Below, piece by piece: positions 6,595-31,706 of a stretch of DNA of 31,706 nucleotides. Numbering within the stretch: the stretch's first letter is position 1; the number at the start of each line of letters is the position of its first letter. A program made the translations under genes and the position numbers. The notes beneath the pieces were generated by a model that saw only the letters and a program-made list of their open reading frames with translations, did not search any database and was not told the DNA's origin. Source of the DNA: a virus. Location of the stretch: positions 1 to 31,706 of the IMG/VR virus record IMGVR_UViG_3300048582_000239. One strand, 5' to 3'.

Positions 6595-6596
6595 AA

Positions 6597-6995: not shown

Positions 6996-7002
6996 CCATG
7001 AT

Positions 7003-9417: not shown

Positions 9418-9439
9418 TATAATTTTAAAACAATTAAAA

Positions 9440-10675: not shown

Positions 10676-10677
10676 AT

Positions 10678-11328: not shown

Positions 11329-11341
11329 CCATTAAATTTAA

Positions 11342-11366: not shown

Positions 11367-11370
11367 ACTT

Positions 11371-12042: not shown

Positions 12043-12054
12043 TCCGGTTTTTTT
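12033..12054 (+). terminator. Terminator containing the nuclease stop codon
   Basis: A five-base stem (GCCGG 12033-12037 with CCGGT 12044-12048, one G-T pair) encloses CTTAGT, which contains the TAG stop of the nuclease gene. It is followed by seven T's (12048-12054). The next ATG comes six bases later. A ribosome finishing the nuclease would cover this hairpin, so termination may depend on translation. Confidence 0.7.
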
Positions 12055-12060
12055 ATTATC

Positions 12061-12279: not shown

Positions 12280-12281
12280 TT

Positions 12282-14003: not shown

Positions 14004-14005
14004 TT

Positions 14006-14353: not shown

Positions 14354-14355
14354 TT

Positions 14356-14787
14356 ATGAAAACACTTAAATTAGAACATTTAAAAATGTACATAGATTGT
14401 GGTTTATATGCTAAAATGTTAGATTATAAAATTGATTATGTTGGTTTAATATTTGATAAAATTGTTGGTTTACATCAATGGGATAAAAACAATGAATATT
14501 TCTGTGTTTTAACAGAAGGAGGATCTAAACCAAGTATAGAAAGAATTTTACCAGTTTTATTTCCACTTTCATATTATACTGACATCAACTCTATTTGGAT
14601 GAAGCAATTAGGATTAGATCTAAATACTCAAATGAATTTGATTGAATTAGCTAAAGGCAAAACAATAGCTAGTAGTTTAAGCTTTGGAGATATACAAGAA
14701 TTATGTAGGGAAAGAATTGATGTATTCAATCTTATTCATCAAAATTTAGCAGTAGCAGTTACTACAAACTTTAATCCTTATGCTTAA
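14356..14787 (+). CDS. Protein of unknown function (143 aa)
   Basis: Begins MKTLKLEHLKMYIDCGLYAK, a start that recalls uncharacterised Bacteroidota phage proteins of the form 'L.LEHL..YLPYGLK'. A region with Trp/His/Asp (GLHQWDKNNEYF) and a Pro-containing stretch (ERILPVLFPLSYY) follow, then a helical C-terminal half. No known motif. Its last eight bases overlap the start of the zinc-ribbon gene. Confidence 0.65.
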   Translation: MKTLKLEHLKMYIDCGLYAKMLDYKIDYVGLIFDKIVGLHQWDKNNEYFCVLTEGGSKPSIERILPVLFPLSYYTDINSIWMKQLGLDLNTQMNLIELAKGKTIASSLSFGDIQELCRERIDVFNLIHQNLAVAVTTNFNPYA

Positions 14788-15211
14788 ACTATCAGACTTA
14801 ACACCGTATCATCAGGATTTAATCCATGGTAAAATTTGTCCTTACTGCAAGTCTGGAACAAAAATTATGACAGAGCAAGAAATCTACGGCCGAACTTTTA
14901 AAGGCCGTACATTGATTGCTTGTGTGAACTTTCCAAAATGTGATTCCTACGTTGGAACTCACGATGATGGAACTTCTTTAGGTAGGCTTTCAAATCATGT
15001 ACACAGAATTAAAAAGAAAAAAACACATGAAGCTTTTGATGCTATTTGGAGAAACGGAGATTTAAGCAGAAATATTGCTTACGAGAAATTAGCGGATTAT
15101 CTTGGCTTACACAGAGAATTATGCCACATAGGATACATGAGCATGGATACATTAGAAAAAGCTTACCAGTGGTCAGGAGAAATGATTTTAAAACTTAATA
15201 AAAAGAAATAA
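14780..15211 (+). CDS. Zinc-binding protein, DUF3268-like
   Basis: A 143-residue protein with a four-Cys zinc site: CPYC (Cys20, Cys23) and, after a Gly/Arg-rich loop (GRTFKGRTLIAC), Cys48 and Cys54. The flanking NFPKCDSYVGTHDDGT is typical of the DUF3268 zinc-finger domain found in phages and prophages and related in outline to topoisomerase-type zinc ribbons. The C-terminal half is helical and basic (RIKKKKTHEAFDAIW). It probably binds nucleic acid. It overlaps the upstream gene by eight bases and ends two bases before the next gene. Confidence 0.75.
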   Translation: MLKLSDLTPYHQDLIHGKICPYCKSGTKIMTEQEIYGRTFKGRTLIACVNFPKCDSYVGTHDDGTSLGRLSNHVHRIKKKKTHEAFDAIWRNGDLSRNIAYEKLADYLGLHRELCHIGYMSMDTLEKAYQWSGEMILKLNKKK

Positions 15212-15213
15212 CC

Positions 15214-15402
15214 ATGAAATATATGGAACTCAAAAAGCTTTTGAAAGCTGCTGCTGTCGAAGCTAAAAAAATATTTAAAAATGACATTCCTGCTATCAAT
15301 ATGACGATCAATGATACCATTGATTTTTTAGCAAAAGAACATAACTTATCAGAAAGACAAAGACACATGTTGGCTTTGTATGGCTGTACATTGCATTGCT
15401 AA
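15214..15402 (+). CDS. Small helical protein whose stop lies in a palindromic repeat (62 aa)
   Basis: A Lys/Ala-rich N-terminal helix (ELKKLLKAAAVEAKKIFKND) is followed by a second helical region (TIDFLAKEHNLSERQRHMLALY). No motif is recognised. The last two codons, TGC TAA, are the first bases of the palindromic element that begins at 15398, so the C-terminus (GCTLHC) and stop may have been supplied by insertion of that element. The gene may be shortened or altered at its end compared with relatives. Confidence 0.55.
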   Translation: MKYMELKKLLKAAAVEAKKIFKNDIPAINMTINDTIDFLAKEHNLSERQRHMLALYGCTLHC

Positions 15403-15527
15403 CGTTAAGACGCTTGGCGAAGAAGCGGATTTGGAAGCACAAACTTTCAGTTTAGCACAAATGCCAATAGAAAGCACGAATGTTCAATTTAGCACTAAAC
15501 CCGCTTTTTTACCAAACGTGTGTTAGC
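15398..15527. repeat. Imperfect palindromic element, attC-like (130 bp)
   Basis: The ends are inverted repeats: GCTAAC (15398-15403) and GTTAGC (15522-15527). Further in, TTGG (15414-15417) pairs with CCAA (15512-15515), and AAGCGG (15423-15428) with CCGCTT (15501-15506). The unpaired centre holds two copies of TTTAGCAC (15451-15458, 15488-15495). This layered, interrupted stem is the layout of integron attC sites, although the end motifs do not meet the strict attC consensus. It also resembles palindromic intergenic repeats common in Bacteroidota. It fills most of the non-coding gap 15403-15576. Confidence 0.55.
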
Positions 15528-15576
15528 AGATGGCACGGGTAATTAAAACGAATTTTAAATTTTAAAACAAATAAAA

Positions 15577-15858
15577 ATGAATGTAAAAAATCAACCAGCG
15601 TTTCCAGTCGAAGTTTCAGTAGATGAAAACGGTAATTTAAGAGGAAGTCAAACGTCAAACTTTTCAGGTTTTGAAATGGGATTGACTAAACGTGAATATT
15701 TCACAGCAAAAGCAATGCAAGGGTTATTGTCAAATCCTGAATGGATGAAAGAATACAAGGGAGAAAAATATCTTATGCAAAGTGATATTATTGCAGATGT
15801 AGCAATCAGAACAGCGGATACAATATTGGCTAAACTTTCAATCGAAGACGGTCAGTAG
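15577..15858 (+). CDS. Small phage-type protein between two palindromic elements (93 aa)
   Basis: The sequence has an N-terminal PAFPVEV segment, a Gly/Ser-rich middle (FSGFEMGLTKREYFTAKAMQGLLSNPEW) and a helical end with IADVAIRTADTILAKL. This matches, from memory, a widespread family of short uncharacterised phage and prophage proteins whose core reads 'G(M/L)T.R.YFAAKAMQGLL'. The leader is AT-rich and the ATG follows AAAACAAATAAAA, a common Bacteroidota initiation context. Both sides carry elements beginning TGCTAACGT, so this gene looks like a self-contained cassette. Confidence 0.7.
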   Translation: MNVKNQPAFPVEVSVDENGNLRGSQTSNFSGFEMGLTKREYFTAKAMQGLLSNPEWMKEYKGEKYLMQSDIIADVAIRTADTILAKLSIEDGQ

Positions 15859-15865
15859 TGCTTTC

Positions 15866-15913
15866 TGCTAACGTCCGGATTGGCGATGGTTTTAATCTCG
15901 CCAATCCAACGTT
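15866..15913. repeat. Hairpin element beginning TGCTAACGT
   Basis: A perfect 10-base stem (GGATTGGCGA 15877-15886 with TCGCCAATCC 15898-15907) has an 11-base loop and an outer AACGT/ACGTT pair (15870-15874 with 15909-15913), separated by an asymmetric bulge. It shares TGCTAACGT and a following TTGGCGA or TGGCGA with the element at 15398. There is no T tract on either strand in the right place, so it is not a standard terminator. Confidence 0.65.
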
Positions 15914-15938
15914 AAAAAAATAATTTAATTACATAAAC

Positions 15939-16133
15939 ATGAAAATTAAAGCAACATTTAGAGGTCGAAAAGATAGCAGAGGTTTTGAGACCGGAAAAGA
16001 ATATGAACTTGAAGTTCTTAAAAATCCTTTTAGTGCAACTACGGCATTAAAAACAAAAGATGGTTTATCATGTGCTTATGGTTCTGCAGCTGCTTTTTTA
16101 ATAAGTTGGGATAACATCAAAATCATTGATTAG
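15939..16133 (+). CDS. Small beta-rich protein of unknown function (64 aa)
   Basis: Begins MKIKATFRGRKDSRGFETGK and continues as alternating strands with a central loop (NPFSATTALKTKDGLSCAYG), suggesting a small barrel-like domain. It is the third small gene of the cassette-like region and follows the second palindromic element by 25 bases. Its 3' end overlaps the end of the opposite-strand gene by 11 bases. No motif is recognised. Confidence 0.6.
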   Translation: MKIKATFRGRKDSRGFETGKEYELEVLKNPFSATTALKTKDGLSCAYGSAAAFLISWDNIKIID

Positions 16134-16392
16134 AATAACCTATTTGCTTGATCAAAGCAATGTCAGAAACAATATACTTGTAGTCAAACTCTTTTGATTT
16201 GGTTAAAGCTTCAACCTTAGCTGCCTCACGAAAAATAATTTTTTGAGATATATCAATTATATTTTGAAAATAAAAACCTTTGACTACAAGTTCTTTTAAA
16301 AGAAATTTTCGTTGTTCAATTTGACTATTGTTTTTAGCAATTTTGACAATTTTAATTTCAACATCAGCTAAATAAATCGGAGTATTATGCAT
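16123..16392 (-). CDS. Opposite-strand small protein of unknown function (89 aa)
   Basis: An open frame on the - strand inside an otherwise + strand block. The product is Lys/Ile-rich with a helical middle (NNSQIEQRKFLLKELVVKGF) and an end (SKEFDYKYIVSDIALIKQIG) that looks like a genuine alpha/beta fold. It starts in the same ATGCAT hexamer as the + strand gene at 16387 and ends overlapping the gene at 15939. The strong terminator at 16582 would cut it off from the right-hand transcripts, so it would need its own promoter, which I could not find. Moderately doubtful. Confidence 0.45.
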   Translation of the reverse strand: MHNTPIYLADVEIKIVKIAKNNSQIEQRKFLLKELVVKGFYFQNIIDISQKIIFREAAKVEALTKSKEFDYKYIVSDIALIKQIGYSNQ

Positions 16393-16581
16393 AAAAAAAA
16401 CGGTAAAAATTCAGGTAAATTAATTCGAATAACCATTGGAACCTACAAAGATGAAACTGGAAAAATCTATAATCACGAATCTCCAGTTAACGGAAAACTG
16501 TTAGTTCATCTTGACAACGGAACAAATATAATAATTGAATCGTATAAATGTCAAATATATGGTTACTTTGATAAAAGATAA
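16387..16581 (+). CDS. Small beta-rich protein of unknown function (64 aa)
   Basis: Begins MHKKNGKNSGKLIRITIGTY and continues with strand-like stretches (GKLLVHLDNGTNIIIES ... CQIYGYF) that read like a small beta barrel. A GGAG at 16380-16383, four bases before the ATG at 16387, gives it a better ribosome-binding site than most genes here. It is the last gene of the + strand block and stops at the base of the convergent terminator (16582). Its start codon shares a palindromic ATGCAT with the opposite-strand gene. Confidence 0.6.
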   Translation: MHKKNGKNSGKLIRITIGTYKDETGKIYNHESPVNGKLLVHLDNGTNIIIESYKCQIYGYFDKR

Positions 16582-16613
16582 AAACCGGTAGCCTAACCCA
16601 AAGCTACCGGTTT
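16582..16613. terminator. Bidirectional terminator between the convergent blocks
   Basis: A perfect 11-base stem (AAACCGGTAGC 16582-16592 with GCTACCGGTTT 16603-16613) around a 10-base loop. On the + strand TTTCTTT follows; on the - strand the stem is followed by a T-rich run (TTTTTATCTTTT). It stops the + strand block after 16581 and the - strand giant gene after 16649. Confidence 0.92.
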
Positions 16614-16648
16614 CTTTCAAAACAATCTAAAACAAACTCAAAGCAAAT

Positions 16649-19600
16649 TTAGAAAATATTTTGTAACATAGCTACCGATGGTGGCGTTGTTTTACTTAAC
16701 ATTTTGTCAGCATCCATTAATGGATTTGCATCTTCAAATAATCCATTGCTTTCTATTCCTCCAATAGAAGTTCCGGCAAACAGAGCCAACATACCAAAAC
16801 CGATCAAGGCTTGGTCTAATCTGTTTCTTTCGTAGGTATCTAAACCACGTCTATGAGCCATGAAATCTTTTGGCTTAACTTCCCCAGTAATAACTTTTTG
16901 TATATGCTTACCAACAACAGTATAGCTTCCAATATGTTTGTTTCCGTAGATATTTAAATCTTCTTTGGCAAACTGGTCATAAAAAACTGTTGGAATATAT
17001 CTTGAAAATTGAAGCATGTTTCTTCCCCAACTGTACATCTGAATCATTCTTTGGTCAGTAGCTTGATAGCCTTTACCGTGATTATTCTTAACTTGATTTT
17101 CATATTTAGCCATTTTTGCAGGATCAATAGTTCCTTGATTGGCCAACGTTTCATATTCTTCATCAGTTAATCTACCGAGAAAATCTACACCTTGAATCCA
17201 TTTCTCAGACCAAATCATAGGAAGCAGTGCTATGTTTGTGAACATATTTCCTAAGCTTTCCTTTTGATCTAAAGCGACATCATCATAAACGTTGATATCC
17301 ATAAATTGAGCATTTTTAAGTATTCGAACACTTTTCTGAATACCTTCAAATGGATTTAAAATATTAAAACCTTTGCCTCCAGTCCAGAATCTTTTTTCTC
17401 CTTTGGCCCAGGTGCCTAAGCCTGCGTTTTTAATATTCATGTACTTACCAACAAGTACATTTCCAATAGCATAAGCTCCTCCTCCTATTACCAACCCTTT
17501 CCATCCTAACCAATAAATCAAAGATGCTTTGGTTAAATAATCAATCACTTTATCAGTACTAAGTCCAACTGCCTCCAAATAACTATTGTTAGAAAAAGAA
17601 CTTTGTTTAGATCCTGACAAGAAGTATTCTCTCCAAACTTTATTTACATATTTGTTTGCATTTTTATCTTTTCTACTATCGGTTAATGCTAAAATTCCAT
17701 CAACTAAAGGCAACATTTTATTCATTCCGGAAAAGTTTTCATTTCCATTATTGAACAAAGTTGAGTGTGTATAATCAGCAAAAGCTTTGTTCAAATCCCA
17801 AGAAGGTAAATCTGTAGAAGCAATAGAACGCGAACTTGAAAATCTAGTCATGAATACGTCTCCCATAGCAGAACCGATTTCAACGTTTGATATCTGCAGA
17901 GCAGAACCATCTTCGTTAATACCTTTTCTAGCTAGAGCAATAGCACGTTGTTTTATTTTGGAAAATTCCATTGCTTTGTCAAAACCACGTTGTTCAGTTT
18001 TTGACAATTGGTTGTACATAGTTTCAATGTTTCCAAAATTTGTGACAACTTCTTTGCCAGTAAAAGGATCTTTGATTTTTAAATTGACATCATAAATTCT
18101 TTCATCAACTGTTTTTGAGGCAACAGCTAAACCTAACATTCCTCTACGAGCTTTAATCTCCAACCATGCCGGTGCAGTATGAGGGATATAGTCGGCACGA
18201 CCTTGTTTCCCTTCTGTCAGTGCAAATGGTTTTAACTCATTGGTTAATTCAGTAGTAACTTTGTAGAACTCATATTGTGCTTTACTTATGGTACCACCTT
18301 TATACTCGCTTTCAATTTGCTCCAACGGTTTATATTTCATGTTGGTTATTGTTTGGCCAGTATTTCCATCAACAATTTCCTCAAACATAATTAAAGGTCC
18401 ATACAGCTTTTTGTATATGTCAACTTTGTTTTCAAAAAGATTTCCAAGAATATTTTTTATTTTATCAATAACACCTGCATTAGAAACAGCATAACCTAAC
18501 TGCTCTCTGTAAAGTGCATCAGTAGCAGCACTAAGTTTGGTCATGTATTTGTTTTTTTCTTTTTTGAATTTAATAAATTCAACTTCCATAGTTCGAACCA
18601 AAGATTGAATCTCCGGTTGATTTGATGGAATATTGTTAGCCATTAAATAGCTTTCAAAGTATCCAATATCTTTGCCTTCGTAACCACTAGATGTATTTCC
18701 GTTTTTAGTTATCAACTCGGCCTGTTCCATTCCTGCACGTTTGGCAATTTCCATAATTATTGGACGCATTACCCGAGCATAAGCAAATTTGTTTCTATGA
18801 GCATAACCAGGCTCTCCGGTAGTTTTTAATTTTTTAGAACTATAAAGTTCCACCAATTCTTCCGAAGTCATTTTACCTACCGTATTTGCGTTTATAGTCA
18901 ACGAATCGGCCATTGCTTTAGCAAAGTCCTTTTTATAAGCATCATACAAAACTTGCTTTCTAACATCAGAAACGTTTTTGTTTAATCCTGTAACAGTAGC
19001 ATATTGCTCAATAGACATCAGCTCTGTATAATTGTAGTAGTCTGCTGCTTCCTCCCTTTTGGAACGACCACCATCATCATCATCGTTTTCACTAGCTTCT
19101 TTTAAAACGTCTCCAATATCATTTGTGATATTTGTGTCCGGAATAGAAACAACTTGTGTTTTATGAGGAGCATTGTTGATATCAATAGTATTCATGTTTT
19201 TGTAAGCAAGCGATGGAATTGAAGCTTTGTAATCATCAGAATTCATTCCTGAAAAACTACTTTGTGGCCAACCTTTAAAATGAATAATTTTTTGTTCATT
19301 TTTTGGAGTTGTTATTTTAAAATAAGTTTCTTGACCTTTTAAAATATTACGCATGATTGCCGGGTTTTCTCTCATAAATTCTGTTGACAAACTAGCTTCT
19401 CCGTTAACAAACTTAAAAGGATAACCTTCTGCTTTTAAAAGCATATTGTTGTTTTGTTGGATAATAGCGTTTTTCAAATCTGCTAGAACATTGCTGTTTA
19501 CTTGTGCGTTTGCAACAACATTTCTGGAAGCTTGTGAAAGTTCTTTTTTAAGTTCCAATGGAAACAAGTGAAACAATGAATCTTTACCGGTCCATCCAGT

Positions 19601-22600
19601 TCTCATTAAATCATATAACATCAAATCATTTTGAAGTTTTTTAGGTAAGTTGGCAAATTCATCCATCATTCTTGCACGTTCCTCAACATTGGCAGTATTG
19701 TTAAAAAAAGAAATGTTCATTGAAATGAATTGATTTTTACCACTGGTTTTGTATCGTAACCCTTTTTTAAATAATAGGTTATTATCGAATTGAGTTGTTT
19801 TGCTTTTTACTCCAGTCATGATATCTACCAAATGAAGCGTGGACATTTGTGCAATTTCATTTTTTAATTGTTGAAATACATTGTCCTCGTTTTTTAGATC
19901 TACAAGACTTTCATATTTTGCTTTTGGAATGTTGTTAAATCCTAACATACGAGAAGTGAAAAAAGCATCAAAATCAGAATAGATTTTTTTGGTATCATAC
20001 TTATTCAAATTTCTGGCCATGGATTCAGTTATGTTTCCAAAAGTATCTGTAATTCTTCTAGCATACACAGGATCAAATTTTCCTTGTATTTTTTCGTTTA
20101 TTTCAAAAGTTCTATAATATTGTTGAACTAATGGATTACTGGCAAACCTTGGAGGAACTTTTATTCCTTTATTGTTTATGTTATTTACGGTTTCATTGAA
20201 TTCATTTTTGATTTTTGACATATTAAAAGGATTTGTTTCAAGGTTATTATGACCTTGAAGCATTCCGGAAATTTTCATGACATCAGCATTGATAACTCCT
20301 AACTGGTTCATTAAATTTAAAACAGCCAAATTGTTTTCAGGAGAATTGATATTATCAAAAGAGACATTGATAGTTTTGTTTTTGCTAAAACCGATTTGAA
20401 AGTTTTTGTCTTTTCTGATCAACTGCTCAATTTCTCTAGCGTTATAATTGTCGCCATAAATGTTTTGAGATTCAGATTGAAGTTCATTGATTCTTTTTAC
20501 AATTGGATGATTTAATACAACTCCAATTTCCTCCAAACTAAAACCTAAATTTCTCAAAATAATTGTATGAGCATCTGTATGTTCATTAATACCTAATTTG
20601 TCAGCAAAGTGATGTTTAACATTATCCATGATGATGTTAAATATTTTTGCGGAATTAATGGTTCTGCTTTCATTTGTGCTGTCTACAAATTTAGTTGCTT
20701 TTTTACCGTTGATAGTAATTGGAGTTACTAAATCAGTTTCATAAGCTGCTAACATACCAACAATAGAATGTAGGTTTGCAGTAGTTCCAATACTGTTTTT
20801 AGTAATAAGAGAATTGTTGAAAGCTTCTCTTTTACCTCTTGGAGAAAACACCATTGCAGGGGTTGTTTCCATGTCATACATGGTTTCAACAAACTTAACA
20901 GCATCTTTGGCTTCTTGCTCAAAATTTAAAGGCATAACAACTTCCGCAGCCATTTCTTTTGATAACCAAAGGTTTGTTAATTGGTCAAAAGCATCATTCC
21001 ATAAAGGCAATCTTGGACCTTTGTGGTTTACAAAAAATGCATCGCCATCAAAATCTCCACCAGTAATAACTCTGGAAAATTCGTTTGGCAACATAATATT
21101 TGAAGCTTGTCCTGATAACTCAATAACTTCAAATACTCCAGTAGATTGTGGGCCGTGTGCCGGAATACGAGTAGCAATAATTGTATCTCCCTCAATGTAG
21201 ATACCAACATCATTACCGTTTTCGTCTTTAATCATACCCGTTTTTTTACCTTCTGATTTTGCAATATTTTTTGCTTTTTCAATCTGAGAGTTTTGATAAT
21301 CTACATCACTAATATTTGTAGTTTGATTTGCTTTGAAAAGGAATGATTTTCTAGGACGTAAGTTTCCGGCCATGAAAGCGGGCAGAACCGCTTCTCCTTT
21401 GTTATGGCTGCCATCTGAATTTTGAGTGTAAAAAGCAAGTTCTTTGCTTCCATTAGTATATCCGTATGGTTTCTCATAAGTTGGGGCTTTAGCTTGTAAT
21501 ACAGAACCAGGAGTTTCAAATTTATTTGAATTTCTACGGATTATATTTGCAATAGTATTTTGTGCAATTTGCTTAACTGCAGGCAAAGTGATATCCAATT
21601 TGTCATTAAGCAACAAAAACTTTTGCGTTGGATCTACATCATCTAATAACATATTTGAAAGCAAAAATTCTCTGATTTCATTTACATCATCTGATTCAAG
21701 TATTTTTTCAAACTTCTCAAAATTCTTTACAATTTGACCTGTAATTTTTCTTTGGATATCTTCTGCAACTTCTAAATTTCCATTGATACCGGCATTGGTT
21801 AAGATTGATCTGAAAGCTTGAATTGCAAAATTAGAGGTAGTCTTTTGCTTATCCATTACTTGCTGTACTACAAAGTTGCCTCCTTGCAATCCTAAAAAAG
21901 TATTGTCAGGATAATACCATTTGTCTAAGTACTGTTCAACGGCTTCTGTATTTTTATTTATATTTTCTAACGTAAAATTATTTCCTTCAAGAGTTGCATT
22001 TTCGTCTTTATCAACTAACTTAACCGGAACCATGCTTGCTTTGTCAGATGAAGTAGGGAACGCATAAATGAATTGAGTTTTATCTCCTCTCAAAATATTT
22101 TTAGACACCGGACCATTGGCCGCTTCATATTTGTCTAAACGTTTTTGCATTAAATCTCTTAATCCTTTTAAAGATGGACTGATACGAATAGCTTCATCAT
22201 CCAATACAGTGAAGTAACCTTTATTAAAAATGTTTCTTCCTGCAAAAGCTTCATTGTTATGCTCTACTCCAGTATGCAATAATTTGTATGAATTGTTCAA
22301 AGGCATAATATTTCCTCCGGCACGTTGAACCATTTCTGCGTGTATCGGTAAAATGTATGCTCCAGAATCATTGCTTGGATCTATGAAAGGAATAGCTTCC
22401 AGTTCTACATTTTCTCCAAAACTAAATCCCGGAGAACGACCTGATTTTGCTCTTTTTAAAAGGTCTTTTGATTTGAAAGAAGGAAAAAATATGTCTGAGA
22501 AATTAATACCATTGTAGATAGTATTTATTACGTATTCAGAAATTATTTCTTTACCGCCATTGTTCAAAACACCGTTGTTATGGAAAGCATCAAAGTTTGA

Positions 22601-25600
22601 AATGTTTTTTAATGAGCTAATGTTTTTTTGGAAAAAATCAATCTCATTATCAATCTCGTTTATAATGTAGTCTTGAAATTCTTTAATAGTCATTTCTCCA
22701 TCAAATCCTTGATAAGCAGAATAGATGTTTTCGAATGAACCTTTGGCTTTATTTGAAAATACAAACTTTCCGTTAATGAACCTTCCTAAATCCATTATTT
22801 TAACTTTAGGAGCTTTCAACAAATAAGAAGTAGGAGAATCGGAGAACCTTCCGGTTTCCATTAAATAGCTTCCTTTTCTTAAATCTCCTAAGTACATAGC
22901 GAATTCAGTAATTGACATTTCTGTTGAGTTTGAATCTCTGATCACATTTGAGTTCTTATTCAAGTTGTTTTGAACACCGCTAAACAAACTTACTTCTAGC
23001 TTATTTCCCTCCTGAACTTCATCATAAAAATAATTTAGCATTTGGTTAGAAAGAGAACCTTTAGGATTTAATTTAGAAAGGTTAGAGTATTTTTTTAAAA
23101 ATTGATTTCTACCTAATTCTTTGGCATCTTTTTCCATGCTTTTTAATTCTCTAGTAACAAAATTATTTATCACTAAAACCGGCTCTTGATTTCCAACGGC
23201 ATTATATACAGTAAAGTCAGCATTGTAACGTCTGTTTGTCGCTACAAGGCTTTTTATGAACTTTCTTATTTCAGGTTTAAATTGGCCTTTGTCATACAAA
23301 TTGTAGTCTAAATAAGTTCCGGATACTGTTGGGAAAGTTTTATTTACAAAGTTAGAAACAACAGTATCTAACGTAAAGTTTTTACCATTTACATTAATTA
23401 TGTTTCCTTTTACAATACTTGCCAAATCCATGTTTGGAGTAGAAAACGGCAATAGTAAATTGTAAACATCATACATGGTATAGTCTCCCGATTTGATACG
23501 ATCAACCGCATCGGTCAACATATTGAAAGCAATAGCGTTATTATCAAATTCTTCTTCTGTTTGTTTATTTTTATTGGCATTAAAGAACGAACCTCCTTTT
23601 TTAAGCAATTGGTCAACAACGTTATCAACCATACTTAATTCTTTTTCGTTTAAATTGTTTTCAACAGAAATAGAACCATCTTCGTTGATTTTAGTTATAA
23701 CGCTATTAAGCTTACTTTGGTTATTGTAAATAAAATACATTGAACTTAAAGCCATGTTTTTATCTGGACGTACTTCTGTCATGTAAAAATTAAAATCTTG
23801 TATCTCCTCAATATTGCTGTTTTCAATTTGATAAATGAAATCAAGATTTGAAGGAGAATTTTGTGCCATATTAATCAAAGCCACTTGAAGTTTGTCTTTA
23901 TCAAACACTGGAATATTACTCCAGTTTGTAGGCTTGTTTTTATTGGCCATGTAAAACTTTCTACGTAAATTCTTTTCGTATAACTTCGCGAAATCACGTA
24001 TGTATTGAGAAGCTTTTTCGCCGTACTTCAATCGGTCATTCTCATACCAGTTCTGTGGATCTTCATCCATAGATTCAATCAACGCATCACTTTCTGCAGC
24101 TTCTTTAATAACTGCTTCGGCATCTTTTACTTTTACTCCTAAATAAAGTTCATTTTCAATAGATAGTTTTTTCTCTATTTCAGAAATGTCATTTAGGTAT
24201 TTTTCATTGTTGGCATCTTCCAACTTACTACGACCGGGACCTGTTATTTCTTTACCATTGATAGTTTCTTTGAACTTAGAAATGATATAGTCTTTTTTAT
24301 TGGTATATTCAATCTGTTCATCGGTAGTCAAAGTTTTTAAGAAAGCGATATCTGAACTTTTACCAAAAGCTTTATCTGCTCGATCTTTGATTTTTCCCCA
24401 CCATTTTTTAGCATAGTGCTGTCTAACTACCTCATCTTTTGGATCAAAATATTTGTTATAAGTTTCCGCTAAATCTCCTTCTAATCCCAAAGCAAAAACT
24501 TCTTCTTTTATGACAGTTTGTTCTTCTATTGGCAATTCTTTTAAGCCAACAAATTCTTCCATTGCTTTAAACTTTTCATCAACAGTCATTGGAGAACCAT
24601 CGTTTTTAACCATATTTTGAAAAGCCTTAGTTCCAATTAAACTTCTTTTTTTATAGACATTTCCTTTGTTGTCTTTATAAAGAAGTTCATCATTGTAGTC
24701 TTTCAAAACTTTATTGACCAATGCTTCATTTTTCATGAAGTATGCAAGAGTAGCTTGTGTTTCTGGCTCACTTTCAAATAGGTTAAAATAGATATGTGAC
24801 ATTTCGTGCATAAACACGTTGTCTTGCTTCCATTTAGTTTTATCGATAAATATAGCACCGGAGATAGTATAACCTATTGATGGAAACCCTAGCACTTTTG
24901 AGAGGTTGTTTACAGCTAATGTATAAACTAAATTGTTCGGGAACATTTCTCTTAGCTTTTCATTAACGGCAACTTGCTGTCCAAGTGTAATGGAATCCAT
25001 ATCGGCAATGTTTCCTAAATTAACTTCGTTATCGAAATCAGTAGCAACATCACTAGCTTTTTGTTTAACGTCAACTAAGAACTTTTTTGCTTTTTGGAGT
25101 AAACCAAGTCCTTTAGTTTTTACTTCTTCGACAGTAACTTTTTTTCTGCCACTATCATCATCGGTATCCGCATCATCAAAAATATTTCCTTTTTTCTTTT
25201 TAGTTGGAACTTTTTGATTTTTCAAGTTATCTAAAAATTCCTGATTGTTATCATCTAACGTTTTGGTTTTACTGCTTGTTTGTCGAGTAGCTTGTTTTTT
25301 TAAGAAAGCTTTTTCGGCATCAGTCAAATCATCATCATTAATAATTTCATCTTGAATTTTTAATTTATCTTGAAGTATAGCTTCAATTTCTGAACCATAC
25401 TCTCCCATAACAGAGACTTCTTCTTTTGTCAACGGAATATCATTTGATATTTTATCAGCAATAGAATTAATTACTCCAGATGGAATATTACCGGTATTGA
25501 CAAACGTTTTAAAAACTTCATCATTGATTTCTGTTTGAGCATCATTATCAACAATAGATGATTTGGCAACAGGAGCTTTTGGTTTTGCTTTGGAAACATT

Positions 25601-28075
25601 CAAAACAGTATTTGTACGATCATCAAAGAAAGTATTGTTCTTTGTCAATCGTGCTGTTTTTTGTCTTGATTTAATTTCTTCATCAGTAGTGTAATCTAAT
25701 TTACTATCTGAATTTAGTTCATAATCAATACTGTCAATACTTCTACCGCCACCAGTATCAATGTTTTCATTAATACTAGTTATAGTTGCTTGTTGGCCAT
25801 CAACATCAATAATGTCTCCAACTTGACTTTGCATAGCAAATTCAGTAGGATCGGTTAACATATCAATAGCACCATCAGTTTGCAGAGTTCCATCGGGAGC
25901 AACCGTTCCGGGAGCAGCTTGTTGTTGAGTAGTATCCGTATCTCCAGTTTTACCTATAAGAGAATTGAAAATGTCTTTTGCTTTTTGTCCAAGATTACGC
26001 AATGAAAACTCTGGAGCTGTTTTAGCTTCCGTGTTTTTATCTGAATTATCAGTCGTTTCAGCTTCATTGTCCGGAATAATAATTTCAGTTCCGTTTTCAT
26101 CAATGACAGTTTTAAAACCAACTTTTTTACCTTTTTTGCCAGTAAGCAAATTAGTTTTGTTAGAATTGAAATCAGCTAATATTTTTGACAAATACATTAA
26201 TTGTGTATCTCTACGTTTTATTTCTTTGTCAATTTCAACTTTGAGTTGGTCCGGTTCTGTCTGTAACTGGTTAGTTAATACTGCTTGAATTTTTTCAGAT
26301 TTAGCTTTTTCAAGTTCAATTTTATTTTGAATATCCATTTGATTGGCAATGTTTACCATCAAAGCTTTTTTACCTGAAATATTTAAGTCAGCAATATCTC
26401 CTTTAACTGCAGACATTTCTTCAAACAAAGTAGTATAGTTGTCTAATTGAGTTTCATCGATAACATTGTTGTCTGCAAGGTTTTTAAGGAAGCCTTCAAA
26501 GTGTGCTTCTTTACCTTCAAAAACAAGTTCGGCCATTTGAGAACGGATATGATGATCTTGCCATGCTCTAGATTCTTTATTCTTTGCCATGGTTTTTAAA
26601 GATTCCTGTCTGTTCATCATTTTGTATGATTCATCTGCAGAGTTATTTACTAATTGTTTGATGTTAAAACCTCCACCAATAGCGGCACCTGCACCAAAAG
26701 CAATAGCTCTTAATGATTCACTATCTTTAGACTGGTAGTAATCCCAAAAACCATCATAGTCTTGCGTAACGCCTTCATATCCTTTCCACGTTCCGGCCAC
26801 ATCTTTGTATGCACGGAATTTTGACCATTCTTCAAATGATTCTTGAATGGTTTCCTCAAAACCTTCGGCAACTGCTTTACCTCCCCATTTAGCTAAATTT
26901 TTATATATTGGAGCTACTTGTTTTGTAAACATACCTCCAGTTATTTTTGCTTGAGCTGCAGGAGAAACAAACTTTGTTCCTTTGGATGCCAATGAACCTA
27001 ATTTTTCCCATCCGCCGCCAAACGTCATTCCCCATGAAAGCATATCAACCGCTAAATATTGCAAGTTATTTGTAAATGCTTGTGAAGCCATTTGACCTAA
27101 TTCTTGCTCGCTAAACATAGCTTCTCCGTTTGGATCTTTGACATCTTTGTATGTATTATAAACTTCGGCAGCGTTGGCCATCGAAACACGTAAGTTCATT
27201 AAAGAACCTGATATTACGTTTTCTGTCATTCCTCCAAAGTTTCTAGTTAAAGTTCCTTTGTCGGTTAACATCTTACCCCAAAGACCGCGACCTTTGCCAA
27301 CTTCAACTGTTCCTTTGGCTCCGGCAAAAACTCCTTGCGTTGTTGCACGTAATCCCATTTTAGCTGTAGCTTCTGCTCCTTCTTGTATGGTTTCTTTCAA
27401 TAATTTTTGTGAAACTTTATTTATCGCAGTAGTAGCTCCTTTGCCGGCTCCTTTAAGAAGTATCATTTCAGCTATTTGAGGAACTGCTTCGGCAACATGT
27501 ATAGACCAAAAATCAGGATTCATAAACGTTTGCCATGTAAATTCAGGATTTAACATTTCTTCCGGAATATATCTTTTGTTCGCTTCTGATATTTCTGTAC
27601 CTACATCTTGAAGTAAGTTGCTGATAAAATTTCCTTCTCTTAAATCTAAACCAGGAATATAAGAACCTAAATATTGTGCTGCATCGCCAAAACCGCCAAT
27701 AGTTTTACCGATACCATTCATTAATGATTTGCCCGATTGTTGAATGAAATTAGCATTAATAGCATCAGGAGACCATGCATCAGGACTAATTACTGTATCT
27801 CTATAATCCATGTAGCCTAACCCGATTTCTTCTTCTTGCTTCATCCTTTTGGCAGATTCTGCATCGTTTACTCCTTTGTTGCGTACATCATCAACGTATG
27901 AGTTATCATATTGTTTAGCCATTTTATCAACTGGCTTTGGATTGATAACATCATTGTACATTTTATCTATATCTGCAGCAGGATCATTTTTTGAAACTGG
28001 AGCAACATTACTGGCTTCTGCTGTTTGTTCTCTCTTGGCTTTAAGCATCGCCAATTTTTGATTATAGTCCGGCAT
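16649..28075 (-). CDS. Giant virion RNA polymerase-type protein with zinc-protease motif (3808 aa)
   Basis: A giant multi-domain protein of the kind crAss-like phages package in the particle. DFDGD (2341-2345) matches the metal-binding loop of the beta'-type double-psi barrel of RNA polymerases. It is preceded at 2303 by RIPAHGPQSTG, which corresponds to the conserved 'R.P.LHR' strand. HEMSH (1090-1094) is an HExxH zinc-protease motif, possibly for processing virion proteins. The first 480 residues are Gly/Ala-rich with amphipathic helices; disordered linkers follow (about 640-1000). Two hydrophobic segments lie near 3520-3542 and 3756-3773, possibly for membrane passage. By analogy with phage phi14:2 it would enter the cell with the DNA and transcribe early genes. 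The 708-residue gene upstream ends in a terminator, so this gene is probably its own unit. RNA synthesis and protease activity are inferred from motifs. Confidence 0.85.
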   Translation of the reverse strand: MPDYNQKLAMLKAKREQTAEASNVAPVSKNDPAADIDKMYNDVINPKPVDKMAKQYDNSYVDDVRNKGVNDAESAKRMKQEEEIGLGYMDYRDTVISPDAWSPDAINANFIQQSGKSLMNGIGKTIGGFGDAAQYLGSYIPGLDLREGNFISNLLQDVGTEISEANKRYIPEEMLNPEFTWQTFMNPDFWSIHVAEAVPQIAEMILLKGAGKGATTAINKVSQKLLKETIQEGAEATAKMGLRATTQGVFAGAKGTVEVGKGRGLWGKMLTDKGTLTRNFGGMTENVISGSLMNLRVSMANAAEVYNTYKDVKDPNGEAMFSEQELGQMASQAFTNNLQYLAVDMLSWGMTFGGGWEKLGSLASKGTKFVSPAAQAKITGGMFTKQVAPIYKNLAKWGGKAVAEGFEETIQESFEEWSKFRAYKDVAGTWKGYEGVTQDYDGFWDYYQSKDSESLRAIAFGAGAAIGGGFNIKQLVNNSADESYKMMNRQESLKTMAKNKESRAWQDHHIRSQMAELVFEGKEAHFEGFLKNLADNNVIDETQLDNYTTLFEEMSAVKGDIADLNISGKKALMVNIANQMDIQNKIELEKAKSEKIQAVLTNQLQTEPDQLKVEIDKEIKRRDTQLMYLSKILADFNSNKTNLLTGKKGKKVGFKTVIDENGTEIIIPDNEAETTDNSDKNTEAKTAPEFSLRNLGQKAKDIFNSLIGKTGDTDTTQQQAAPGTVAPDGTLQTDGAIDMLTDPTEFAMQSQVGDIIDVDGQQATITSINENIDTGGGRSIDSIDYELNSDSKLDYTTDEEIKSRQKTARLTKNNTFFDDRTNTVLNVSKAKPKAPVAKSSIVDNDAQTEINDEVFKTFVNTGNIPSGVINSIADKISNDIPLTKEEVSVMGEYGSEIEAILQDKLKIQDEIINDDDLTDAEKAFLKKQATRQTSSKTKTLDDNNQEFLDNLKNQKVPTKKKKGNIFDDADTDDDSGRKKVTVEEVKTKGLGLLQKAKKFLVDVKQKASDVATDFDNEVNLGNIADMDSITLGQQVAVNEKLREMFPNNLVYTLAVNNLSKVLGFPSIGYTISGAIFIDKTKWKQDNVFMHEMSHIYFNLFESEPETQATLAYFMKNEALVNKVLKDYNDELLYKDNKGNVYKKRSLIGTKAFQNMVKNDGSPMTVDEKFKAMEEFVGLKELPIEEQTVIKEEVFALGLEGDLAETYNKYFDPKDEVVRQHYAKKWWGKIKDRADKAFGKSSDIAFLKTLTTDEQIEYTNKKDYIISKFKETINGKEITGPGRSKLEDANNEKYLNDISEIEKKLSIENELYLGVKVKDAEAVIKEAAESDALIESMDEDPQNWYENDRLKYGEKASQYIRDFAKLYEKNLRRKFYMANKNKPTNWSNIPVFDKDKLQVALINMAQNSPSNLDFIYQIENSNIEEIQDFNFYMTEVRPDKNMALSSMYFIYNNQSKLNSVITKINEDGSISVENNLNEKELSMVDNVVDQLLKKGGSFFNANKNKQTEEEFDNNAIAFNMLTDAVDRIKSGDYTMYDVYNLLLPFSTPNMDLASIVKGNIINVNGKNFTLDTVVSNFVNKTFPTVSGTYLDYNLYDKGQFKPEIRKFIKSLVATNRRYNADFTVYNAVGNQEPVLVINNFVTRELKSMEKDAKELGRNQFLKKYSNLSKLNPKGSLSNQMLNYFYDEVQEGNKLEVSLFSGVQNNLNKNSNVIRDSNSTEMSITEFAMYLGDLRKGSYLMETGRFSDSPTSYLLKAPKVKIMDLGRFINGKFVFSNKAKGSFENIYSAYQGFDGEMTIKEFQDYIINEIDNEIDFFQKNISSLKNISNFDAFHNNGVLNNGGKEIISEYVINTIYNGINFSDIFFPSFKSKDLLKRAKSGRSPGFSFGENVELEAIPFIDPSNDSGAYILPIHAEMVQRAGGNIMPLNNSYKLLHTGVEHNNEAFAGRNIFNKGYFTVLDDEAIRISPSLKGLRDLMQKRLDKYEAANGPVSKNILRGDKTQFIYAFPTSSDKASMVPVKLVDKDENATLEGNNFTLENINKNTEAVEQYLDKWYYPDNTFLGLQGGNFVVQQVMDKQKTTSNFAIQAFRSILTNAGINGNLEVAEDIQRKITGQIVKNFEKFEKILESDDVNEIREFLLSNMLLDDVDPTQKFLLLNDKLDITLPAVKQIAQNTIANIIRRNSNKFETPGSVLQAKAPTYEKPYGYTNGSKELAFYTQNSDGSHNKGEAVLPAFMAGNLRPRKSFLFKANQTTNISDVDYQNSQIEKAKNIAKSEGKKTGMIKDENGNDVGIYIEGDTIIATRIPAHGPQSTGVFEVIELSGQASNIMLPNEFSRVITGGDFDGDAFFVNHKGPRLPLWNDAFDQLTNLWLSKEMAAEVVMPLNFEQEAKDAVKFVETMYDMETTPAMVFSPRGKREAFNNSLITKNSIGTTANLHSIVGMLAAYETDLVTPITINGKKATKFVDSTNESRTINSAKIFNIIMDNVKHHFADKLGINEHTDAHTIILRNLGFSLEEIGVVLNHPIVKRINELQSESQNIYGDNYNAREIEQLIRKDKNFQIGFSKNKTINVSFDNINSPENNLAVLNLMNQLGVINADVMKISGMLQGHNNLETNPFNMSKIKNEFNETVNNINNKGIKVPPRFASNPLVQQYYRTFEINEKIQGKFDPVYARRITDTFGNITESMARNLNKYDTKKIYSDFDAFFTSRMLGFNNIPKAKYESLVDLKNEDNVFQQLKNEIAQMSTLHLVDIMTGVKSKTTQFDNNLLFKKGLRYKTSGKNQFISMNISFFNNTANVEERARMMDEFANLPKKLQNDLMLYDLMRTGWTGKDSLFHLFPLELKKELSQASRNVVANAQVNSNVLADLKNAIIQQNNNMLLKAEGYPFKFVNGEASLSTEFMRENPAIMRNILKGQETYFKITTPKNEQKIIHFKGWPQSSFSGMNSDDYKASIPSLAYKNMNTIDINNAPHKTQVVSIPDTNITNDIGDVLKEASENDDDDGGRSKREEAADYYNYTELMSIEQYATVTGLNKNVSDVRKQVLYDAYKKDFAKAMADSLTINANTVGKMTSEELVELYSSKKLKTTGEPGYAHRNKFAYARVMRPIIMEIAKRAGMEQAELITKNGNTSSGYEGKDIGYFESYLMANNIPSNQPEIQSLVRTMEVEFIKFKKEKNKYMTKLSAATDALYREQLGYAVSNAGVIDKIKNILGNLFENKVDIYKKLYGPLIMFEEIVDGNTGQTITNMKYKPLEQIESEYKGGTISKAQYEFYKVTTELTNELKPFALTEGKQGRADYIPHTAPAWLEIKARRGMLGLAVASKTVDERIYDVNLKIKDPFTGKEVVTNFGNIETMYNQLSKTEQRGFDKAMEFSKIKQRAIALARKGINEDGSALQISNVEIGSAMGDVFMTRFSSSRSIASTDLPSWDLNKAFADYTHSTLFNNGNENFSGMNKMLPLVDGILALTDSRKDKNANKYVNKVWREYFLSGSKQSSFSNNSYLEAVGLSTDKVIDYLTKASLIYWLGWKGLVIGGGAYAIGNVLVGKYMNIKNAGLGTWAKGEKRFWTGGKGFNILNPFEGIQKSVRILKNAQFMDINVYDDVALDQKESLGNMFTNIALLPMIWSEKWIQGVDFLGRLTDEEYETLANQGTIDPAKMAKYENQVKNNHGKGYQATDQRMIQMYSWGRNMLQFSRYIPTVFYDQFAKEDLNIYGNKHIGSYTVVGKHIQKVITGEVKPKDFMAHRRGLDTYERNRLDQALIGFGMLALFAGTSIGGIESNGLFEDANPLMDADKMLSKTTPPSVAMLQNIF

Positions 28076-28106: not shown

Positions 28107-28133
28107 AAAAAAAAGCTACTCAAATAAGTAGCT
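28107..28133 (-). terminator. Terminator of the 708-residue gene
   Basis: On the - strand a seven-base stem (28133-28127 with 28120-28114) around a six-base loop leads into eight T's (A run at 28107-28114). The stop codon TAG of the 708-residue gene (28134-28132) overlaps the stem. It separates that gene from the giant gene. Confidence 0.88.
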
Positions 28134-30258
28134 ATTTTACAGAGTTCAGATAATCAACGTTGTTTATCCATTTTGAGACAATTGGAACGTCTTCTGGAGA
28201 GTTTTTTACAGCAAAATTATACATCATAGTAAGTATTTCTTTATCGCTATAACGACCTGATTTTACTATTTCAGTTAAGTTTTGATTATTGTATACAAAT
28301 CCTTTTTCATCGTATTCTCGAATATCACGTTGAATATTCATTTCAGGATCTTTGGTTATATCCATAACAGCGTTAGGAGAGTTGTCTCCAGACAATTGTG
28401 CCAAAGTAGCATAAAATCCTTTAATGAAGTTTGAGTGTTTACCAGTGTACTGTCCGGTGCCTGAAAGAGCAACACCATCATAATAAGTGTTTTCAAAAAC
28501 TCTAGGATTACCATTCATAACACTCCAGAATTCTTCTGCTTCTGCTTTTGAAGCAGCAACTTCTCCGTTTTTCTTTTTTAAACGTTGCTCACGATTATAA
28601 GTATCTTCTTTTAATGAAGTAGCGTTTGCCAAAGGTCCTAAGTCTTGTGTAATTTTATTCATTGTGCTTGAATCTTTAGGATCAATCAATTCATAAAATC
28701 TGTCTCCGTTTTCGCTTTCTAAAACAATAGCCATTTGACTGTTCAAAGTAGAATTTGCAAATTGTTTTTTTAAATTTTCTACTGATTTTTTGCTTGGTTT
28801 TCCATTATCAACTTCATGCATAGCAATCATTTGATTTCCATCTTGGTCTTTACCTACATGTACGGAAACAATATCTTTAACTTCAAATTTTCTTTCAGCA
28901 TAAGCTTCGTAATCAACTTGGCGACCTCCGCTAATTGTTCGAGAACCATCAGCCATAAAAGATTTGTCGCTTGGTCTGTAACCAACATATTTTCCATTGT
29001 TTGTTGCAATAGATTTTGTTTTGTCTTTAATGTTAAAGAAAGAATCTGCCACGTTATCTTTAACTCCTTTAAAGACACGTCTAGCACCAACCGGAGCATA
29101 ATCACTTTGGAAAGCAGCATCAAAATCATTTGATAATTCTCCTTTTACTCCTTGTGAAGCACCTGCATCAAAAAGTCCTCCAAACCATCCTTTTTCACTA
29201 ACGTTATGGAATGTTCCTGCCAACTCTCCTAAAGGAATATCTTCTGATAGTTGGTTTAATGTTGAACTTGTTACTTTTCCTGAAAGTAAATCATCAACAG
29301 AAAACTGACTAGGCATTTCAGAGTAAGCATCTGAAATTTGGCCAGTAATTAAATCAACATATCCTTTTTCGTATGGATCAACTACGCCATCGCCTCCGGC
29401 AATTTCATTTCCATCAGCATCGTAAGTTTTAGAACCACTTTTACCTTTACTGTTAATTCCACCCAGTTTAGCCATAGCTTCAACCATGTCAACTTTTTGT
29501 TGAGCTAACATTTCTTTGTGTCGGTTGGCTTCTTTTTCAATAGTCATTTGTCTTTGCCATTCAGAACCACGACCTTGATACATTTGATCTGTGAAAGCTT
29601 CAAGGGCTTCTCTCGATGGCTCTCCGCTGTCAGGATACATCATTTTGTAGTTACCGTATATCTTAGCATAGTTAGACATTAAAATATCTCTAGCAGGGAT
29701 TTTTTGGCCGTAATCGTAATTTTCAGAAGGTGGCATTTCTATTTCGTTAAACATACCGGAATAAGTAATACGACCTTCTCCAGTTTCTCCATATTTTCTA
29801 AAATTATCTAAATCTATTGGAGAAAGCAAATGTCCTTTACCGGCTTCTTGAACTTTCAAAATAAATTCAGTATTCTTTTTATTTTCAAGGTAAGCATTTG
29901 CTTCTTCTGAATTAATGATTTTGTTTTTGTAATCACTCATAATCGTATGGCCACCGTTGGCAAAAAACTTGGTCATGTCGCCTCCTTGATTTGCAATTTC
30001 TTCTCTCACTCTTTGAGAAAGTAATTTTGCTTTATTGTTAATACGGTTACGATCAGGAGCAAGTAAATTGTCGGCAAACTTCGAAATCTGCTCGTTGTAT
30101 TGTTGTTCTTTAAGCTGTGCAAGTTCTTGGTCAGCTTTTTTTTGTTTCATTACGCCATCAAAAACAACCATTTTTTGCATAGAGGCATCTTCTCTAGCAA
30201 GTTTATTTTGTGTTCCGTATAGTGCGGACAATCCTTGTCCTACTCCCCAGTCGCTCAT
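28132..30258 (-). CDS. Putative internal virion protein (708 aa)
   Basis: Begins MSDWGVGQGLSALYGTQNK and continues with a long charged helical region (about 20-110, rich in Gln, Glu, Lys). A mixed domain with Tyr/Pro-rich strands follows (about 150-230), then a Gly/Ser/Asp linker (about 270-300) and a beta-rich C-terminal half (for example VGYRPSDKSFMADGSRTISGG). There is no enzyme motif and no signal peptide. Its size, helical start and position directly before the giant polymerase gene match the internal 'cargo' proteins of crAss-like particles that leave the capsid with the genome. The start is 11 bases after the upstream gene's stop. Role inferred from context. Confidence 0.7.
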   Translation of the reverse strand: MSDWGVGQGLSALYGTQNKLAREDASMQKMVVFDGVMKQKKADQELAQLKEQQYNEQISKFADNLLAPDRNRINNKAKLLSQRVREEIANQGGDMTKFFANGGHTIMSDYKNKIINSEEANAYLENKKNTEFILKVQEAGKGHLLSPIDLDNFRKYGETGEGRITYSGMFNEIEMPPSENYDYGQKIPARDILMSNYAKIYGNYKMMYPDSGEPSREALEAFTDQMYQGRGSEWQRQMTIEKEANRHKEMLAQQKVDMVEAMAKLGGINSKGKSGSKTYDADGNEIAGGDGVVDPYEKGYVDLITGQISDAYSEMPSQFSVDDLLSGKVTSSTLNQLSEDIPLGELAGTFHNVSEKGWFGGLFDAGASQGVKGELSNDFDAAFQSDYAPVGARRVFKGVKDNVADSFFNIKDKTKSIATNNGKYVGYRPSDKSFMADGSRTISGGRQVDYEAYAERKFEVKDIVSVHVGKDQDGNQMIAMHEVDNGKPSKKSVENLKKQFANSTLNSQMAIVLESENGDRFYELIDPKDSSTMNKITQDLGPLANATSLKEDTYNREQRLKKKNGEVAASKAEAEEFWSVMNGNPRVFENTYYDGVALSGTGQYTGKHSNFIKGFYATLAQLSGDNSPNAVMDITKDPEMNIQRDIREYDEKGFVYNNQNLTEIVKSGRYSDKEILTMMYNFAVKNSPEDVPIVSKWINNVDYLNSVK

Positions 30259-30269: not shown

Positions 30270-31706
30270 TTAAAAATTATCAATAGGCCAATTATACTGC
30301 TCTCCAAAGTTAGAGTTTTCAAGTGGATTTTGTGAATTTATATCAGTTGAAATAATTTCAGAATTAGTTGTAGACTGATTTTTCTCAATTTCTTTCATAG
30401 CTTTTGCTTCGCTATAAAGATATGACATATCTCCACTTTCAAAAGCTTTTCCCATATTTTCTGTATTCATAGTTTTTCCTTGAACATCATTGTTTTCAAG
30501 GTAATTTATAAATTTAAACATATCTTCTTTTTTGGTATTAACAGCGGCAAAGTCTCCTATAGCTTGCTGTTTTTCTTTACCTAAACGGAAAAACTTTTCT
30601 TGAAATCCTTTAAACTCATTTGCTTTTTCAATTTGCTTTTGAGTTTCTGCAATTTTATATGACATTGTAAAAGGTTGAGTTCCGGAACCATCATCTTTAA
30701 GTGAAGGATCATAACCAAACCATTCTCTAGAGAAATGTGATTTCATTGTATGGTTAACACTTCCCGGAGCATTTTCTTTTGCCAATTGTACATTTTCTAA
30801 AATACTTTGAAAAGCACTTCCGGCTAATTGTGCTCCGGCTTGTTTTGTCAACATAGCATTTTGATATTTTCTTTCGTTGTTGGCAATGTCACGATTTGCA
30901 TCAAAATCATTTATGTATTTAATAGCTTCTCCGTATTTCATTAAAGCTTCATTTTTAGCTGCCGATTCTGCCAAACCTAATTTTAAAAGTCCTTCTTGCT
31001 TTTGATTTTCAACAGCGGAAAGATTTCCTAAAACTAAATTTCTGTTTCCACCCGAAGCACCAACAATCATAGCTAAATTTGATTGATATGATTCAGACAA
31101 CATTTTTTTGGCATAAGCTTCATCTTCTGGACGTAATCCAATTTCAGAAAGTTTTGCCAGTTCTGCAGTATAATTTCTCAATGCATCTGAAACTTGTTCA
31201 TCACGCATTGGAATTTTTTCTTTGGCCATATTTAAACCAAAAACAGCTCCGGCAATTCCAGAAAGAACTTCCGCGTAAGGAAAGTTATCTTTGAATTCTT
31301 CTTCTTTAAAAGGAGCCGGTGCATTAGCATCAATATTAAAATAATCAGTAATATTGCTTAAGTTTTCACTAGCAATAGCTTTTTGAGCCTGAGCTTCTTT
31401 TTTAGCATCTGCAGCCGCTTCAATTTTTTTAAAATCTTCTTCTGTAAATCTTTCAGGATCAGAAGTAGATAATTCTGCTTCTTCATCGGTAACTTCCAGT
31501 TGAGGTTCTTCGGGTAATGTAATTTCTTTTAATAATGGTTTTACAACAGGCTTAACGTTTCTTGAATTTGGTACAGAACTAAAAGTTCCATAATAGGTTT
31601 CTTTGCCATCAGTTGCGTTAAATAACTTTTCAATAGTATTTGCCGCATTATTGGCACTCCACGTATTTAAGGTAATTGCTGTGTTTTTGTTTCGAACTAA
31701 ATTACC
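30270..31706 (-). CDS. Putative internal virion protein, 5' end outside the window
   Basis: The frame stays open from the stop at 30270 to the right window edge, giving at least 478 residues, and there is no ATG between the edge and 31229, so the real start lies outside. The internal ATG at 31229 (MAKEKIPMRDEQ) is unlikely to be the start because the upstream part looks coding: Thr/Asn-rich, then Pro/Glu-rich (LKEITLPEEPQLE), then a helical Lys/Ala/Glu stretch and a short Gly/Ala hydrophobic segment (SGIAGAVFGLN). The rest is long helices with a GASGGNRNLVLGNL loop. It is probably a capsid-internal protein made with the 708-residue protein, by position and style only. Confidence 0.7.
   Translation of the reverse strand, partial: GNLVRNKNTAITLNTWSANNAANTIEKLFNATDGKETYYGTFSSVPNSRNVKPVVKPLLKEITLPEEPQLEVTDEEAELSTSDPERFTEEDFKKIEAAADAKKEAQAQKAIASENLSNITDYFNIDANAPAPFKEEEFKDNFPYAEVLSGIAGAVFGLNMAKEKIPMRDEQVSDALRNYTAELAKLSEIGLRPEDEAYAKKMLSESYQSNLAMIVGASGGNRNLVLGNLSAVENQKQEGLLKLGLAESAAKNEALMKYGEAIKYINDFDANRDIANNERKYQNAMLTKQAGAQLAGSAFQSILENVQLAKENAPGSVNHTMKSHFSREWFGYDPSLKDDGSGTQPFTMSYKIAETQKQIEKANEFKGFQEKFFRLGKEKQQAIGDFAAVNTKKEDMFKFINYLENNDVQGKTMNTENMGKAFESGDMSYLYSEAKAMKEIEKNQSTTNSEIISTDINSQNPLENSNFGEQYNWPIDNF

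Follow-up and report, generated by a model that had tools for sequence, protein, structure and literature searches.

The virion RNA polymerase of the crAss-like phage phi14:2, gp77 in GenBank and 'gp66' or PDB code 6VR4 in the literature, is encoded in one of three cargo genes whose products have 1,797, 2,180 and 1,421 residues and one or two cysteines each. The gene product gp78 adjoins the polymerase, gp76 carries an HExxH motif (HEIMH, residue 245) 3′ of it, and gp76 to gp80 are annotated as virion proteins by MS/MS. Three genes are also found in crAss001, with gp47 on the strand opposite gp49 and gp50, and all three products occur in virions (PMC10172136). They comprise an N-subunit, gp47, with HExxH at its C-terminus (residue 2157), a polymerase with the sequence GSDFDVD, and a C-subunit.

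Partial fusions are already in the databases. In cr273_1 (Suoliviridae) a 5,794-residue 'virion structural protein' combines a long N-terminal part, HEAWH (2587) and the RNA polymerase (GSDFDVD, 4461); TAG is read as glutamine, 14 cysteines are present and the C-region is a separate protein of 2,043 residues with a second HExxH at 243. This second motif, distinct from the one that precedes the polymerase, lies at about 243–245 near the start of the C-subunit both in cr273_1 (L177:15365-21496) and in phi14:2 gp76; two zincins may be present in some crAss-like phages. In cr8_1 and cr3_1 (Intestiviridae) the polymerase and a long C-terminal part share one ORF (4,422 and 4,245 residues), the N-subunit ending in HExxH is a separate gene preceding the giant, and there are 6–15 cysteines. 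The C-region appears to be joined in these chains, judging from a weak C-terminal match in cr3_1 alone.

Two other phages offer comparisons. The N4 virion RNA polymerase (gp50, 3,500 residues, Schitoviridae) is a giant, cysteine-free, ejected polymerase with a fused HExxH domain (PMC12633501; PMC5512222), and its gene lies downstream of those for two smaller ejection proteins, likewise free of cysteine. P23-45 gp96 (5,002 residues) is a single ejected chain with a DFDGD two-barrel RNA polymerase, a metallopeptidase and membrane domains (PMC10770324), and it also lacks cysteine.

A giant open reading frame and its relatives

The window analysed here is a 31.7 kb virus fragment. An earlier note, made from the letters alone, had described a single 11.4 kb open frame of 3,808 residues joining polymerase and zinc-protease motifs. 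The frame is intact, running on the minus strand from an ATG at 28075 to 16649 with no interruptions, and the three motifs lie where they had been placed, the DFDGD within GGDFDGD at 2339–2345 (Table 1). From the composition of the protein itself 0.003 occurrences of DFDGD would be expected by chance.

Table 1. Features of the giant gene and its surroundings in the window
Feature	Position	Strand	Remarks
Convergent early/replication genes	119..16581	+	DnaB-like helicase, Dda-like helicase, exonuclease, DNA methyltransferases; layout as in phi14:2
Terminator-like 15-pair hairpin between convergent early genes and giant	16580..16615		
Giant protein, no cysteine	16649..28075	-	Complete in L148-L151, L154, L156, L158, L162, L163, L165, L168
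C-region with hydrophobic segments, residues 3508-3775	16751..17554	-	Homologous to phi14:2 gp76 973-1314
Two-barrel RNA polymerase, residues 1690-2931	19283..23008	-	Homologous to phi14:2 gp77 (published as gp66, PDB 6VR4)
DFDGD 2341-2345, predicted Mg-binding catalytic loop	21041..21055	-	D.DGD invariant, 14 sequences
RIPAHGP 2303-2309, R[IV]P strand of catalytic barrel	21149..21169	-	Arg, Pro invariant, 14 sequences; aligns with YRIP of phi14:2 gp77
Zincin-like metallopeptidase segment, residues 1030-1240	24356..24988	-	Present in 12/13 members covering the region; deleted in G001
Glu1192 in EEVFA, candidate third zinc ligand	24500..24502	-	Invariant in 12 members; separate helix in model
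HEMSH 1090-1094, putative zinc-binding motif	24794..24808	-	HExxH or HExxxH in 12 family members
Gly/Ala-rich N-region, residues 123-618	26222..27709	-	Homologous to phi14:2 gp78 95-543; putative ejection/membrane part
708-aa cysteine-free protein, just upstream of giant	28132..30258	-	Putative co-ejected cargo; 650-740 aa cysteine-free counterparts in the same place in relatives
C-terminal part of protein cut by window end	30270..31706	-	Position of relatives' 934-941 aa cargo protein; matched by position only

Sequence searches of Pfam, PHROG and the PDB yielded no usable match to the giant protein, and tblastn against known phages a single weak one, of residues 2429–2531 to a 'putative RNA polymerase' of the crAss-like Kolpuevirus. 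Searches for related loci with single proteins found no relatives, and none is present in the genome collection searched. A degenerate scan for GGDFDGD returned 120 loci, of which just one, L022, was accepted as closely related; two further motif scans added two more relatives, and a scan with a four-sequence alignment returned 21 loci. The set amounts to about 12 non-redundant giants, 20–43% identical overall to the window protein. Every complete relative is a single ORF of 3,645–4,024 residues and no relative has a cysteine, so we take the fusion and the absence of cysteine to be family traits. The same observation rules out an assembly error as the source of the giant frame. Downstream of the giants in L159 (12902-15175), L162 (16952-20251), L164 (19090-20943) and L168 (19899-23309) are open frames of 618–1,137 codons with 33–63 cysteines, possibly antisense.

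The RNA polymerase

Alignment of the family profile with a polymerase profile built from phi14:2, Kolpuevirus and crAss001 gave a probability of 99.5 and an E-value of 2e-22 over 915 columns (hhalign). The alignment spans window residues 1845–2931 on gp77 860–2045, placing RIP over RIP and DFDGD over DFDID; reversed and shuffled decoys scored at background. The crAss-type signature, an R.P strand followed by a G.D.D.D catalytic loop, is present, and all 14 sequences share Arg2303, Pro2305, Asp2341, Asp2343, Gly2344 and Asp2345.

An AlphaFold2 model of residues 1690–2860 (pLDDT 74.6, pTM 0.65) has the phi14:2 crystal structure 6VR4 as its best match (Foldseek E-value 7.8e-18). VIA superposition of the two gives a Z-score of 16.9 over 980 residues at 4.5 Å (model residues 4–1169). 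The next structural matches are plant RDR2, QDE-1 and P74 gp62. The earlier assignment of a polymerase, and the two-barrel fold expected around residue 2341, are both borne out, the latter from the matches of the model. On profile and model comparison together we regard it as settled that the residues around 2341 belong to a crAss-type two-barrel RNA polymerase.

An N4-type polymerase can be set aside, as hhalign finds no match to N4 gp50 and the predicted fold is the two-barrel type rather than the T7-like single-subunit one. The N4 enzyme has a T7-type single-subunit polymerase followed by its zincin and no sequence relationship to the giant; the likeness of the two, which extends to the position downstream of smaller cysteine-free proteins, is one of analogy, not of descent. 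The polymerase of P23-45 gp96 shares the two-barrel architecture but is clamp-less, is placed at the N-terminus of a long-tailed phage's tape measure protein and shows no detectable overall homology.

The terminal regions and a colinear fusion

The N-region aligns with phi14:2 gp78 in hhalign with a probability of 85–90 and E-values of 1.5e-6 to 7e-6. Reversed decoys gave probabilities of 0.5–1.0 and shuffled ones scores of at most 19.5, compared with 65 for the real alignment. It is the weakest of the three region matches to phi14:2. The C-region matches gp76 with a probability of 96 and an E-value of 4e-9 (reversed decoy probability 0.1–0.2). Two compositional features described earlier are also present. 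Residues 201–400 are rich in glycine (14%) and alanine (12%), and there are late hydrophobic segments, weak ones, at about 3519–3545 and 3753–3775.

The regions matching gp78, gp77 and gp76 follow one another in the giant in the order of the genes in phi14:2, which makes the giant a colinear fusion of three neighbouring cargo genes. The proposal of fused functions, which phi14:2 and crAss001 spread over three proteins, is upheld. The rarity that it implied is not, since cr273_1, cr8_1, cr3_1, the N4 virion polymerase and P23-45 gp96 are partly comparable. This is the first family found here with all four parts in one chain; what is new is that every part is contained in a chain no longer than about 4,000 residues, family-wide. 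As judged from sequence comparison, the giant is a cysteine-free chain in which a virion RNA polymerase of the crAss type is joined with a zinc-peptidase-like domain and with two putative ejection-protein regions, a set for which the better-known crAss-like phages mostly use two or three proteins.

The zincin-like segment

Is the HEMSH sequence part of a zinc peptidase? In a comparison of the segment among 12 relatives, which are 16–34% identical to the window protein, the only invariant residues are Gln1084, His1090, Glu1091, His1094, Tyr1127, Gln1186, Glu1192 and Lys1223. Four of these eight (His1090, Glu1091, His1094 and Glu1192) make up a zinc-binding set, and it is on this basis that we read the site as probably that of a gluzincin, with Glu1192 the candidate third ligand. 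In an AlphaFold2 model of the segment HEMSH lies in one helix and Glu1192 in another (model residues 188–198). The earlier note had named a disordered or helical context with no third ligand as a finding against its reading; in the model the context is helical, and an invariant candidate ligand is offered by the other helix, with the caveat that the model is of moderate quality (pLDDT 67.9).

The zinc-protease claim is probably right, as judged from the conserved residues. Foldseek and VIA comparisons of the moderate model with the PDB returned no zincin fold, and Pfam gave no peptidase match to the segment. In the PDB the zincin profile picked up IgG Fc ('MHEALHNHY'), a chance resemblance. 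The HExxH region at the C-terminus of crAss001 gp47 aligns weakly, in register, with the segment (probability 10, E-value 0.003).

The failure to recover either a peptidase family or a fold would fit HEMSH being a chance or structural motif with no zinc peptidase, as would the loss of the motif from one relative, G001, that retains the remaining chain. We consider this quite improbable. Only 0.018 HExxH motifs are expected by chance from the composition of the giant, the constraint on the histidines, the adjacent glutamate and the distal glutamate is that just described, and four relatives have HExxxH in place of HExxH, a variant described for the zincins of ejected polyvalent proteins (PMC5512222).

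The G001 deletion removes some 70–80 residues including the motif and leaves Glu1192 and the remaining chain in frame, as seen in one metagenomic contig. Among ORFs of at least 100 codons in this 33 kb contig there is no other HExxH, and we reject the idea that another gene of the contig supplies the peptidase.

Possible roles of the peptidase

The earlier note had suggested that the protease could mature the polymerase. As a general rule this is not supported, for G001 retains a single full chain while lacking the segment; maturation of the polymerase therefore does not require the peptidase in every case. On this idea, put forward in general for polyvalent proteins as well, the zincin would cleave on both sides of the polymerase after packaging or entry, releasing separate gp78-, gp77- and gp76-like proteins. 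The zincin is placed exactly between the N-region and the polymerase, its catalytic residues are strongly constrained, embedded zincins have been proposed to process multidomain ejected polypeptides (PMC5512222), and the same regions are separate proteins in phi14:2. Set against this, beside G001, are the HExxH motifs of phi14:2 and crAss001, where the proteins are already separate, so that processing is not the only role, and a study of the N4 virion polymerase that describes a full-length enzyme of 383 kDa. Such self-processing is possible but, on balance, doubtful.

The zincin may instead have a different substrate, which could be another cargo protein or a protein of the host, whether of its envelope, a defence factor or a transcription factor. 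Zincins recur in the ejected proteins of unrelated phages, namely the C1 domain of N4 gp50 (PMC12633501), P23-45 gp96 (PMC10770324) and polyvalent proteins (PMC5512222). The motifs in crAss001 gp47 and phi14:2 gp76 indicate that an HExxH occurs with fused and with separate chains alike, and loss in one lineage would suit a host-specific target. We regard a target of this kind as a fair prospect, if somewhat short of probable. A further reading, which we think unlikely, is that of a single-chain infection machine, in which the peptidase, built in between a membrane-channel part and the polymerase, frees the polymerase in the cytoplasm after ejection, and sister lineages without the peptidase transcribe while tethered to the channel.

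Neighbouring genes and absence of cysteine

There is no cysteine among the 3,808 residues of the giant, a feature that the earlier note did not mention. At the cysteine frequency of the other proteins of two related genomes (0.95%) the probability of this is about 10^-16. Cysteine is also absent from the 708-residue protein and from the partial protein at the end of the window. The cysteine content of most early-gene products is normal (seven in the 470 residues of DnaB). N4 gp50 (3,342 residues checked), gp51 and gp52, T7 gp15 and gp16, and P23-45 gp96 likewise contain none, and we note that some structural proteins that are not ejected, such as the N4 MCP, lack it too. All cargo proteins of the giant's family (window; L148-L168) are cysteine-free, a possible signature of ejected proteins.

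In one relative, G006, the 934-residue cysteine-free cargo protein (L145:14432-17236) begins with a Phage_lysozyme2 domain (E-value 3.6e-21); the counterparts in G004 and G001 give no lysozyme domain match. In G004 and G006 the giant gene directly adjoins or overlaps the counterpart of the 708-residue gene. In the window a terminator-like hairpin followed by eight T lies between the two genes on the minus strand (28114–28133), which could reduce the number of copies made of the giant.

The late block of phi14:2, like that of the window, is convergent with the early genes. The plus-strand early genes of the window would be the targets of the virion polymerase. A search of the sequence ahead of the plus-strand genes revealed no common early-promoter word. 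The methyltransferases of this block are an N6-type-like enzyme (450–1676) and a C5-type-like enzyme of 573 residues (12282–14003).

Placement among crAss-like phages

The genes for TerL and portal are absent from the window itself, and placement was tested on G004 and G006. The contigs of two relatives are 73.6 and 77.7 kb long, and their TerL, portal, muzzle-like and C1-like proteins match those of crAss-like phages. The tblastn matches of TerL of G004 and G006 are nearly all to Crassvirales (best E-value 9e-20), and their portal aligns with crAss proteins with a probability of 97.9 over 661 columns. Profile matches to crAss001 or phi14:2 proteins were obtained for TerL (probability 95), muzzle (91–95, over partial stretches) and C1 cargo (86.5); a CrAss_Ring_1 match (E-value 7e-4) was under the cut-off. 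For the presumed MCP (568 residues) tblastn finds no match, nor does hhalign match it to crAss001 gp32, which argues for a deep, divergent branch of, or beside, the Crassvirales.

A model for the giant and its implications

We infer packaging in the virion from the gene neighbourhood and the absence of cysteine. Ejection and early transcription are suggested by the lack of cysteine as in the N4, T7 and P23-45 proteins, by the cargo-like neighbours and by the convergent early genes. The giant would be packed in the capsid together with the cysteine-free cargo proteins encoded beside it, one of which has a lysozyme domain in a relative, and at infection would pass through the tail partly unfolded. 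The N- and C-regions may help to build the ejection channel or bind to it, and the polymerase, with Asp2341, Asp2343 and Asp2345 in its active site, would transcribe the early genes of the opposite strand. The zincin-like domain is probably active, most likely during or just after entry, on the junction of its own N-region and polymerase or on an envelope or host protein. Taken together, it is very probable that the whole cargo set is carried in one virion-packaged, ejected chain that transcribes the early genes, with a zincin that is probably active but not universally required.

The family marks an undescribed group of crAss-like phages of 75–78 kb, in which the crAss transcription cargo is seen in its most compact form. 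It suggests a common order of N-region, zincin, polymerase and C-region, which known families split into one to three genes. Alongside N4 and P23-45 it is another instance of an ejected virion RNA polymerase with a zinc-peptidase-like domain built in and, since G001 is a natural knock-out, the role of such peptidases becomes testable. Finally, the ejected giants examined have no cysteine, or a few in some crAss members, and this offers a simple signature with which to search unannotated genomes for ejected proteins.
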